A stretch of 46,807 nt of DNA from an uncultured Bacilli bacterium (lineage in GTDB: Bacteria; Bacillota_I; Bacilli_A; RF39; UBA660): the NCBI GenBank assembly GCA_944329445.1, contig CALVIH010000005.1, positions 1 through 46,807 on the forward strand. The letters run 5' to 3'. A model generated the notes under the pieces. It did no database searches. It saw only the letters and a program-made list of their open reading frames with translations, and was not told the origin of the DNA. Position numbers and translations under genes: made by a program. Shown here in pieces: positions 13,601 to 16,650 of this stretch. Every line of letters starts with the position of its first letter. The first letter of the stretch is position 1.

Positions 13601-13629
13601 AAAAAAGAAACTTAACTAAGTAAGTTTCT
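13601..13629 (-). terminator. Terminator of the 31-residue-repeat gene, overlapping its stop
   Basis: The minus strand has GAAACTTA / TAAGTTTC (8 bp, 6-base loop) followed by TTTTTT. The stem begins inside the TAG stop codon of the upstream gene. Confidence 0.8.
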
Positions 13630-14866
13630 AATTATTATTATTGTTTTTCTTTTTCTTTGACATTTTTACATAAGTATTACCTTTAATGTCTATCCCTGGA
13701 AATTCTTTATCAAGCTCCAAAGCACCTTTTATAGCACTTTCATCCGAGTATGCATAAAGTTCATTAAATTTCTCATAATTGTTAGTTGATCTTAATATTT
13801 TAACTAAACTTTCGGTAGGATTTTTACTTAATTCATAATTACCCGTTACAAGCAAATCTATAACAGCATCAAAATTATTAGGATTTATTTTTGATTTAAA
13901 TACATCCATTAAACAGATTAAAACTTCTAAAAAACCAGATATTACCAATTTATACATTCCATATAAGTTGTTAGGGTTAGTATTTGCAAATAAAGTTGCT
14001 ATTTCTATTATTTTATTTGATTTTATAACATCAGTATTTTGAATTATGTCGCAAGTAAATTCAGCATTTTTTTTCGTTTTAGCATTTGCTACTATTTTTG
14101 TTAATTCTATAGCAGTTTCACTTTGAAATTTTTCGAAGTTTTTTGCAACTATATATGCTTGAAAAGAATTTTTAGCATTTGCTACTATTTTTGTCAATTC
14201 TACTACATTTTTACATTCTAATTTACTTAAAACACATGCCACTTCAGCTGTTATAGGCGGTTTTGTTGCATCTGCTACTATTTTTGTTAATTCTACAACG
14301 TATATACTTTGTAACACATTTTCATTCACTGCAACAGAAGATGCACTTATTGGATTGTTAGAATTCGCTACTATTTTTGTTAATTCTACTAAGTGTCCTC
14401 TTTTTTTTACTTCATTATTGGAAGCAACATTATATGCCTCCCTACAATTGCACGATGATTTACTATTTAATAGAATTTCAAAAATTTCTTTTTTATCGGA
14501 AAAATTTATATTCGATGTAGAATTAAAAAATTTTATAGCTAATTCAACTTTTTCAGGTTCTATACATTTACAATTATATATACTTTTTAATATTTTTTTT
14601 GCATCTTTAGGTTCGGAACTTTTTAAAAGACTAAATATTTTTTCAAATTGACCTTCGTCATTTTCAAAAATCATAACCTGAGTTTCATAATCATAATCAT
14701 TAAATAGTGGTAGATAAAAATATTTTTCTAATTTATCTAATTCTATTTTATTATCCATAATGTACTTTATCAATCTAGTATCAGCCATTAATAGTTTTTG
14801 CATCAATCCTGGTTTGATACATAAATTGATTTTTTTGCATAATTTTACAATCATATCTGCTTGCAT
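13628..14866 (-). CDS. Uncharacterised helical repeat protein with 31-residue ELTKIVA repeats
   Basis: I do not recognise this family. The 412-residue protein has no signal peptide or membrane segment. Residues about 159-285 contain four consecutive units that start with [LVA][VI]ELTKIVA[ND]; three are exactly 31 residues and the fourth is 34. A fifth, degenerate unit follows (IIEIATLFANTNPNN). The alternating hydrophobic pattern suggests paired alpha-helices stacking into a solenoid, which usually binds protein. Earlier sequence (KVELAIKFFNS) may be a worn-down unit. The C-terminus is basic with a run of Asn. SD GGGAGG lies 7 bases before ATG. It sits between hrcA and hemW, genes adjacent in Bacillus, so it is an insertion with its own promoter and terminator. 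Confidence 0.75.
   Translation of the reverse strand: MQADMIVKLCKKINLCIKPGLMQKLLMADTRLIKYIMDNKIELDKLEKYFYLPLFNDYDYETQVMIFENDEGQFEKIFSLLKSSEPKDAKKILKSIYNCKCIEPEKVELAIKFFNSTSNINFSDKKEIFEILLNSKSSCNCREAYNVASNNEVKKRGHLVELTKIVANSNNPISASSVAVNENVLQSIYVVELTKIVADATKPPITAEVACVLSKLECKNVVELTKIVANAKNSFQAYIVAKNFEKFQSETAIELTKIVANAKTKKNAEFTCDIIQNTDVIKSNKIIEIATLFANTNPNNLYGMYKLVISGFLEVLICLMDVFKSKINPNNFDAVIDLLVTGNYELSKNPTESLVKILRSTNNYEKFNELYAYSDESAIKGALELDKEFPGIDIKGNTYVKMSKKKKNNNNN
14021..14392 (-). repeat. 93-bp in-frame tandem repeats
   Basis: A nearly invariant 23-base block (plus strand GCTACTATTTTTGTTAATTC and following bases) recurs at 14088, 14181, 14274 and 14367, exactly 93 bases apart. It encodes the ELTKIVA core of the repeat protein. 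The bases between blocks have diverged, so it is coding tandem duplication and not CRISPR. Confidence 0.9.
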
Positions 14867-14926: not shown

Positions 14927-14953
14927 AATATAGCAACAAAATGTTGCTATATT
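14927..14953 (-). terminator. Terminator of the acidic tail-anchored protein gene
   Basis: A perfect 12-bp stem (AATATAGCAACA / TGTTGCTATATT, 3-base loop) is followed on the minus strand by a T-rich stretch (TTTATT). It contains part of the stop codon of the upstream gene. Confidence 0.85.
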
Positions 14954-15341
14954 ACTTTATAAAACTAAATACTTTATCTATTCCAATTATATATATTACT
15001 AGTGCTGCTATATCTAAAACCAAAAGAATAGATAACAAAATAATTAATGGTGCTTTATTTTTCTTTTTTTCTGGTTCGGTTGAATCAGTGTCATTATTTT
15101 CTTCCGGTGTTTCTTCTTTACTTTCTTCTGAGGTATTATCCTTTACTTCTTCTGTTTCAACTTCCGTTTTATCTTGATTGTTTTCGTTGTTAGTCTCTTC
15201 ATTTTCTTTAGGTGTTTCATCAACTGGTAAAACATCCTCCATTACTACGTCTTCTATTTTATTTGTAGCAGGTTTCTCTTCTGGTGCTGGAACCTCTTCT
15301 ATATCCTCAATTTCTTCTATTATTTCTTCTTTAGTATCCAT
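14952..15341 (-). CDS. Acidic low-complexity protein with C-terminal membrane anchor
   Basis: I do not recognise a family. Residues 1-95 are almost entirely Glu, Asp, Thr, Asn, Pro and Lys and probably disordered. A KKKNK basic patch is followed by one membrane helix (about residues 100-122, PLIILLSILLVLDIAALVIY) and a short FSFIK tail. This is a tail-anchored topology with the acidic part in the cytoplasm, the basic patch being at the inner face. SD GGAGGTAGG is strong. It is preceded by a structured leader of about 120 nt with its own consensus-like promoter and an internal terminator, so expression may be conditional. Confidence 0.65.
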   Translation of the reverse strand: MDTKEEIIEEIEDIEEVPAPEEKPATNKIEDVVMEDVLPVDETPKENEETNNENNQDKTEVETEEVKDNTSEESKEETPEENNDTDSTEPEKKKNKAPLIILLSILLVLDIAALVIYIIGIDKVFSFIK

Positions 15342-15365
15342 AACCTACCTCCGTATCATAGGACA

Positions 15366-15482
15366 AAAGAATAAAGCAAACTTTATTCTAGTCAGTCGTT
15401 ACCTTCTAACATTCCTGCTTCACAGATAAAGCAACCTTTATTCTCCACAGGCTTAAATTCCGATAGTCGCTACCGTACTTAT
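15366..15482 (-). ncRNA. Candidate structured leader RNA or small RNA with paired hairpins
   Basis: Downstream of a good promoter lies about 117 nt of non-coding, unusually G+C-containing sequence that ends in an intrinsic terminator (AGAATAAAG / CTTTATTCT, plus-strand 15368-15389, then TTTTG). An earlier hairpin uses the same arms (ATAAAG / CTTTAT, plus 15426-15441). The first 5' arm AGAATAAAG can pair perfectly over 9 bp with the 3' arm of the terminator, so two exclusive folds are possible. The decamer GGTARCGACT occurs near both ends (complement of 15465-15474 and 15394-15403). I do not recognise a known riboswitch or 6S/SRP/T-box signature. It precedes the acidic membrane protein gene by 25 bases. 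Confidence 0.55.
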
Positions 15483-15488
15483 ATTTAC

Positions 15489-15517
15489 ATTATAACCCAA
15501 CTCAAATTATATATCAA
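15489..15517 (-). promoter_or_regulatory. Promoter of the leader RNA / acidic protein
   Basis: Minus strand TTGATA (complement of 15512-15517), 17-base spacer, TATAAT (complement of 15489-15494). It lies directly after the hemW stop, so the leader is transcribed independently of hemW. Confidence 0.75.
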
Positions 15518-15522
15518 GAACT

Positions 15523-16650
15523 TTAAATTATATTTTCAAGTAACATTATGATTATTTCATTAGATATAAAAAGTTTATTTTCTGGTATAAAAACATTTGC
15601 TTCATTTTCGTTTAGATATCCTTTTAGCTTTAAATCTTTATAGTTAAATGCTTTATCAAATGAAATATTATATTTATTTTTAAAGGTTTCTTTATTTATT
15701 CCGCTTGTTTTTCTTAGATTAAGCATTACCTCATCTTTCATAAGCGTTTTTTTATCTAGTATTTCCTCATATACGATAGTTTTACCACTTATGTAGTTTT
15801 TAATACTTTTAGTGTTATCATATCTTTTATTCTCAACAAAACCTGATGCTCCCGCTCCAAATCCGTAATAACGTTCGTTATTCCAATAAGTTAAATTATG
15901 CTTAGATTCATATCCCGTTTTAGCAAAATTACTGATTTCGTAATGTTCGTATCCGTTTTTTGACAATTCTTTTATTATTTCATAATACATTTCATTTTGA
16001 AGATCTTCATTTGTTTCTTTTATCTTGTCTATTTTTAACTTGGTATGATCCTCAACTATTAGCGCATAAGTACTAACGTGAGCAACATCTAATTTAACTA
16101 TAACCATTAAATCTTCTTTTAAATCATTTATGCTTTCATTTGGTAAGGCATACATTAAATCAACGTTTACGTTATCAAAGTATGATTTAGATAAGCTAAC
16201 ATTCTTTATTATCTTTTCTTTATCTATTATTCTGTTTAATACTTTTTCGTACTTTTTATTAAAACTTTGGATTCCTATACTTAACCTGTTAACTCTGTTT
16301 TCTTTTAAAAATGATAGTAACTCTTCAGTTATATCCTCAAAGTTACATTCGAAAGTAAATTCATAATCTTTTGATAACTTAAGAGTTCTTAATATTTTAA
16401 AAAGTTCTTTTAAGTTATCCCGTGAAAGACAGCTAGGTGTTCCACCACCTATGTATAACGTGTTTAAAACCTCACCCTTATAATTATTTTTTATTTCTAT
16501 TTTTAAAGCATCTAAATAATTACTTACAACCTGCTCATCATAATAATTTTTACAAAAATCGCAATAAGAACATACTTTCTTACAAAAAGGAACATGAACG
16601 TAACAACTTTTTATTTTACAATCTTTTCTTGGAACCACTAAACTTACCAT
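15523..16650 (-). CDS. hemW: Radical-SAM heme chaperone HemW (HemN-like)
   Basis: HemW-type proteins bind S-adenosylmethionine and a 4Fe-4S cluster and are thought to insert heme; they were long annotated as oxygen-independent coproporphyrinogen oxidase. The cluster motif CxxxCxxC is in HVPFCKKVCSYCDFC, followed by LYIGGGTPS and the family motif GIQSFN. The length of 375 residues fits. HemN-type CPO has an extra cysteine directly after the cluster (CxxxCxxCxC). Here the residues after CSYC are DFC, giving CxxxCxxCxxC, which fits HemW better. The start ATG at 16650 has AGGA 5 bases upstream and overlaps the preceding SpoIIID-like gene by 35 bases. The neighbour lepA is as in Bacillus. Confidence 0.92.
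   Translation of the reverse strand: MVSLVVPRKDCKIKSCYVHVPFCKKVCSYCDFCKNYYDEQVVSNYLDALKIEIKNNYKGEVLNTLYIGGGTPSCLSRDNLKELFKILRTLKLSKDYEFTFECNFEDITEELLSFLKENRVNRLSIGIQSFNKKYEKVLNRIIDKEKIIKNVSLSKSYFDNVNVDLMYALPNESINDLKEDLMVIVKLDVAHVSTYALIVEDHTKLKIDKIKETNEDLQNEMYYEIIKELSKNGYEHYEISNFAKTGYESKHNLTYWNNERYYGFGAGASGFVENKRYDNTKSIKNYISGKTIVYEEILDKKTLMKDEVMLNLRKTSGINKETFKNKYNISFDKAFNYKDLKLKGYLNENEANVFIPENKLFISNEIIIMLLENII

Follow-up and report, generated by a model that had tools for sequence, protein, structure and literature searches.

A probable tnpB-less guide-RNA scaffold of an IS200/IS605-type element in the leader of an acidic protein gene of an uncultured gut Bacilli bacterium

In the ISDra2 system the guide of TnpB is the flanking DNA next to the 3' end of the RNA scaffold (PMC8612924). 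The segment considered here, positions 15478-15361 on the minus strand of the window (the whole 46,807-nt stretch of DNA that was analysed), resembles the reRNA or omegaRNA of IS200/IS605 TnpBs such as ISDra2 (PMC8612924, PMC10097598) in its right-end scaffold of about 116-118 nt, its several hairpins and a guide in the 3' flank, and its homologues likewise lie directly 3' of an IS200/IS605-type tnpB. Unlike those systems it has no adjoining tnpB, its neighbour being hemW, and no left end, which marks it as a solo degenerate copy and not an intact system. We consider it very probable, from comparison with related genomes, that the segment is what remains, without tnpB, of an IS200/IS605-type element inserted in the leader of a gene for an acidic protein, namely the guide-RNA scaffold that forms the element's right end. 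The kind of RNA is thus most likely already known, and what is new is a copy without tnpB in the leader of a host gene. The likeness to the ISDra2 RNA is one of layout and of the linked TnpB, not of RNA sequence comparison, and by analogy with ISDra2 (PMC10097598) the terminal GUYC may form a pseudoknot with the conserved GGA that follows hairpin 1.

Three further systems invite comparison. RAGATH-18 (RF03064) is the scaffold of IS607-type TnpB guide RNAs (PMC11061315), and the window shares with it the outer motif CCUGUGGAG ... UGAAGCAGGAA, the ends that bear a kink-turn in RAGATH-18. However, the inner hairpin of the window RNA is much shorter, and RAGATH-18 is linked to IS607 whereas the homologues of the window RNA are linked to IS200/IS605-type TnpBs. 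A sensitive scan over 261 nt gave 23.8 bits for the window, and locus L048 reached 24.7; the gathering score of 44.9 was passed by no relative locus, and RAGATH-18 was rejected as a family label, being under the cut-off and of the wrong TnpB type. No Rfam family matched in the window at gathering scores. The guide RNAs of TldRs, the nuclease-dead TnpB repressors (PMC13418256), are alike in being TnpB-type guide RNAs near a host promoter, but at the window no tldR gene was found, the RuvC motifs of the TnpBs in relatives look intact from their sequences, and the guide matches its own locus only. A tnpB-less internal deletion in a related genome (G020:C10, L044) also has guide RNA and right end without tnpB; it keeps left-end-like sequence and the start of tnpB, and the window copy keeps neither.

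The segment lies between hemW (15523-16650, minus strand), encoding the radical SAM haem chaperone (TIGR00539 above cut-off), and a gene on the same strand (14952-15341) whose acidic, weakly CD1107-like product has a membrane segment at its C-terminus; this gene comes after hemW throughout the genus. Among the orthologues of this protein the C-terminal membrane segment is conserved genus-wide and the acidic part is free to vary. The promoter named in an earlier note on this DNA, TTGATA (15517-15512) and TATAAT (15494-15489) separated by 17 nt, is present at 15489-15517 on the minus strand with 11 of 12 consensus matches, and was the top promoter-like site of the region in a scan of both strands. 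The non-coding stretch that follows, put there at some 117 nt, measures about 117-120 nt up to the ribosome-binding site and ATG (15341) of the acidic gene. Between the acidic gene and hrcA is a 412-aa ORF (13628-14866, minus strand) with internal VELTKIVANAKN-like repeats and no match in Pfam or NCBIfam; in most congeners hrcA is directly next, without this ORF, and one congener (L055) has a similar ORF.

The scaffold is delimited at 15361-15478 (minus strand, as are all the features below) by a covariance model, R1, and by tnpB-adjoining homologues, with homology reaching a few bases further 5', to about 15486. Hairpin 1 (15461-15475, CGGTAG-CGA-CTATCG) is 100% paired in eight sequences, among which an A-U to G-C double change occurs. 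Hairpin 2 (15414-15451) has an outer stem CCTGT/GCAGG with the RAGATH-18-like ends and an inner stem at 15443-15425. Hairpin 3 (15391-15410, GTTAG...CTGAC) is closed by a GUAA tetraloop, where the alignment shows GUGA/GUAA-type loops in other copies, and carries double changes at two pairs. Hairpin 4 (15368-15389), which the earlier note had read as a terminator, is the right-end hairpin of the element; its sequence differs in other copies with the pairing kept, and four of its pairs show double changes. The right end itself, TTTTGTCC (15361-15368), reads TTTTGTTC in most copies of the alignment, and in the copies inspected homology stops there, at TTTTGTYC; the flanking DNA that follows in the window corresponds to the leader which the gene has where the site is empty. 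The first 16 nt of that DNA, TATGATACGGAGGTAG (15345-15360), form the would-be guide and are at the same time the ribosome-binding region of the downstream gene. The decamer GGTARCGACT does recur as had been noted, as GGTAGCGACT at 15474-15465 in hairpin 1 and GGTAACGACT at 15403-15394 in hairpin 3. As a functional repeat it was rejected: the copies sit in unlike structural places, across the loop of hairpin 1 and at the GNRA loop of hairpin 3, and in the alignment their resemblance is lost in other copy groups.

Among 99 related genomes, BLAST found homologues with E-values to 6e-29. Model R1, built from 12 copies elsewhere with the window left out, finds 15478-15361 (minus strand) at full length with 90.6 bits (E 3.7e-16), which is level with a copy beside a tnpB pseudogene (G007:C16, 90.8 bits), the training copies scoring 106-125. 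It matched in 11 of 98 related genomes, with up to three copies each and three in several genomes, the spotty, multi-copy pattern of a mobile element. Covariation was examined in eight copies from one genus over 33 named pairs, with the structure drawn from the window copy. These pairs were 93% paired across the eight copies and 10 of them had changed on both sides, the observed covariation score was reached by none of 500 shuffles, and pairing fell to 31-55% when the structure was slid by 1-3 columns. The pairing of the window at all 33 positions is no evidence in itself, as it is partly so by construction; the double changes are. The fold of the whole stretch is only slightly better than that of shuffled sequences (z -1.37, 16/200), and it is conservation in other genomes, not the window fold alone, that is far beyond chance. 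An RNA from the plus strand was discarded, its z-score being weak alike and that strand having no comparable promoter. The proposal of an undescribed structured RNA thus holds as far as structure and its conservation in relatives go, but the RNA is a segment of TnpB guide-RNA and right-end type and not a new class of leader or sRNA. A distant, short, guide-RNA-like match of 42.6 bits (L137, G082:C1:957296-957398) lies in another family of the class. Within one genome, three loci (G007:C14, G007:C25 and G007:C23; L050, L142 and L149) make up a diverged group of solo copies, of which L050 again lies immediately before a ribosome-binding site.

The link with TnpB comes from these homologues. In three copies (G005, G041 and G051) an intact TnpB frame of roughly 374-407 codons stops immediately 5' of the RNA. 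In four other genomes (G009, G016, G020 and G042) the contig breaks within the C-terminus of tnpB just 5' of the RNA homologue, as expected since multi-copy elements collapse in assembly. The linked proteins have OrfB_IS605 and Cas12f1-like TNB domains, match the ISDra2 TnpB structure 8bf8 (E 3.6e-64) and best fit the IS200/IS605 TnpB model, one of them above cut-off; the IS607 model fits far worse. No trace of tnpB was found near the window RNA, a fossil between hemW and the RNA included, and no left-end motif is recognisable there, so the boundaries of the element at the window rest on its homologues. Loss of this kind is seen elsewhere, as pseudogene pieces of tnpB at G007:C16 and G016:C27, and at G020:C10 left-end-like sequence, the start of tnpB, the RNA and the right end are left without the body of the gene. 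In the left flank, where a TAM or target motif would lie, left ends elsewhere are preceded by TATACTA or TATAATA; the window has TATAATG, its left end being lost. A family of TnpB elements is thereby documented in gut Bacilli of the Candidatus Aphodocola type, with a guide RNA that Rfam does not recognise and with solo copies. A limited literature search found no direct precedent for solo TnpB guide RNAs.

The site itself is informative when read in other genomes. The window genome falls among uncultured gut Bacilli that include Candidatus Aphodocola, and in 16 congeners the site between hemW and the acidic gene could be read. All 16 have hemW, a TTGA-type -35, a TATAAT in the same position with respect to the end of hemW, a Shine-Dalgarno sequence and the orthologous acidic gene, and none has the RNA between the two genes. 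Where the window reads TATAATG, then the RNA, then TATGATACGGAGG, congener L055 reads TATAATGTTACTATGATATGGAGG, and the guide TATGATACGGAGGTAG has its counterpart in the leaders at the empty sites. Because the congeners keep promoter and gene without the RNA, what lies between the -10 box and the Shine-Dalgarno sequence is an insertion and the promoter belongs to the gene, not to the RNA. A TTGATA at the 3' end of tnpB in other copies had seemed a source of the -35 box in the window, a reading given up in view of the native -35 of the congeners. A switch would call for the RNA upstream of the orthologous gene, and by this test the reading fails. Once its nuclease gene is gone, and where Rfam is without the family, the scaffold of a TnpB guide RNA can be mistaken for a promising orphan leader, and it is the orthologous site in congeners that settles the question between the two.

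By this comparison the element was inserted between the promoter of the acidic gene and its ribosome-binding site, just 3' of the -10 box. The left end and tnpB might later have been lost, or might never have arrived, with only the RNA segment remaining; deletion between short repeats is a possible route of loss, since the G009 copies carry TTATAAATG immediately 5' of the RNA, which is similar to the TTATAATG found at the -10 box in the window. Transcription from the native promoter of the gene should now run through the RNA, which would lengthen the mRNA leader by 120 nt. Were this RNA loaded by a TnpB from another locus of the genome, the 16 nt that follow TTTTGTCC, the gene's own leader, would serve as its guide, and by analogy with the ISDra2 TnpB (PMC8612924) it would recognise the empty version of the site and not its own locus. 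The latter would be spared because the bases before the guide are scaffold and not a TAM, again judging from the ISDra2 TnpB. At present the RNA is most likely a remnant that is structurally intact but not autonomous, and any effect that it has on the downstream gene would be incidental.

The possibility that the solo RNA still works is an extension of this explanation into function and leaves the identity of the RNA unchanged. A TnpB acting in trans would load the RNA and either cut empty promoter sites between hemW and the acidic gene, and so hold its place in the manner of a tiny homing element, or lower expression by binding there. TnpB elements do seem to be at hand in this genome: contigs C46 and C43 each have, at one end, a left end that shares 87-88% identity with the G005 element, and C39 starts with a right-end half that shares 99% with a G009 copy. 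With left and right ends thus sitting at contig ends a trans-acting TnpB is plausible, and full elements are probably present but collapsed in the assembly. The scaffold is also well kept, 49 of the 54 columns that are invariant in mobile copies being unchanged in it, and in the TldR systems a locus with a broken tldR may still supply guide RNAs in trans (PMC13418256). Against this, no TnpB was found in the assembly of this genome, the window RNA differs by 24-28% from presumably active copies in the genus, and with up to two mismatches the guide matches a single place in the genome, its own locus. Moreover, conservation in one genome is indistinguishable from recent arrival. We therefore regard a working solo RNA as unlikely, and as still less probable its full form, in which a guide RNA outlives its nuclease gene, captures a host promoter, is co-transcribed as a leader, is loaded by TnpB in trans and guards its position by cleaving empty alleles. 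Function of a solo copy in trans could be the surprising part of this locus if it were true, and the full form would amount to an RNA-only homing element of 120 nt.

A cis-acting switch or attenuator of the acidic membrane protein, working through exchange of hairpin arms as the earlier note suggested, is highly improbable. The RNA does lie within the leader of the gene, and the exchange can be computed, its pairing probability ranging from 0.09 to 0.86 with the 3' end chosen, so that for some ends it is favourable; yet the favoured fold flips with that choice. The two hairpins are there, but they share exactly only the 5' arm AGAATAAAG, the 3' arm of hairpin 1 reading CTTTATCT and not CTTTATTCT as had been claimed. 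A repeated 9-mer occurred in 33 of 2000 dinucleotide shuffles as against 103 of 792 real stretches, each of 118 nt, taken from this AT-rich contig, and since repeated 9-mers are common in real stretches the arm repeat is unremarkable. The arms common to hairpins 1 and 4 are absent from all 14 other copies, and the orthologous gene has a short and plain leader elsewhere, with the RNA missing in every one of the 16 congeners. Judged by these sites the RNA is not a conserved regulatory switch. Least probable of all is a stand-alone regulatory sRNA unrelated to TnpB, for which the good promoter and terminator-like end might speak, but the promoter is that of the downstream gene in all congeners, the homologues lie at the 3' ends of tnpB, and hairpin 4, a perfect 9-bp stem followed by TTTT-GTCC, would be a weak terminator and was missed by a terminator scan (2 G-C pairs, 4 T).

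Two observations were made on the elements in the related genomes. At six loci (L038, L039, L040, L046, L119 and L120) the left end GGAAAGT comes after a T tract like that of an intrinsic terminator and after TATACTA or TATAATA, which suggests, from these sequences, that -10 boxes or the stretch right after a terminator may be the target of the element. Genome G051 holds a second type of TnpB element (L048, 3640-3738, and L049) whose left end reads ATCCCATTAAC and whose right end reads GTTCAC; its guide RNA is shorter, and it is the hairpin ends of this RNA that give L048 its 24.7-bit match to RAGATH-18.
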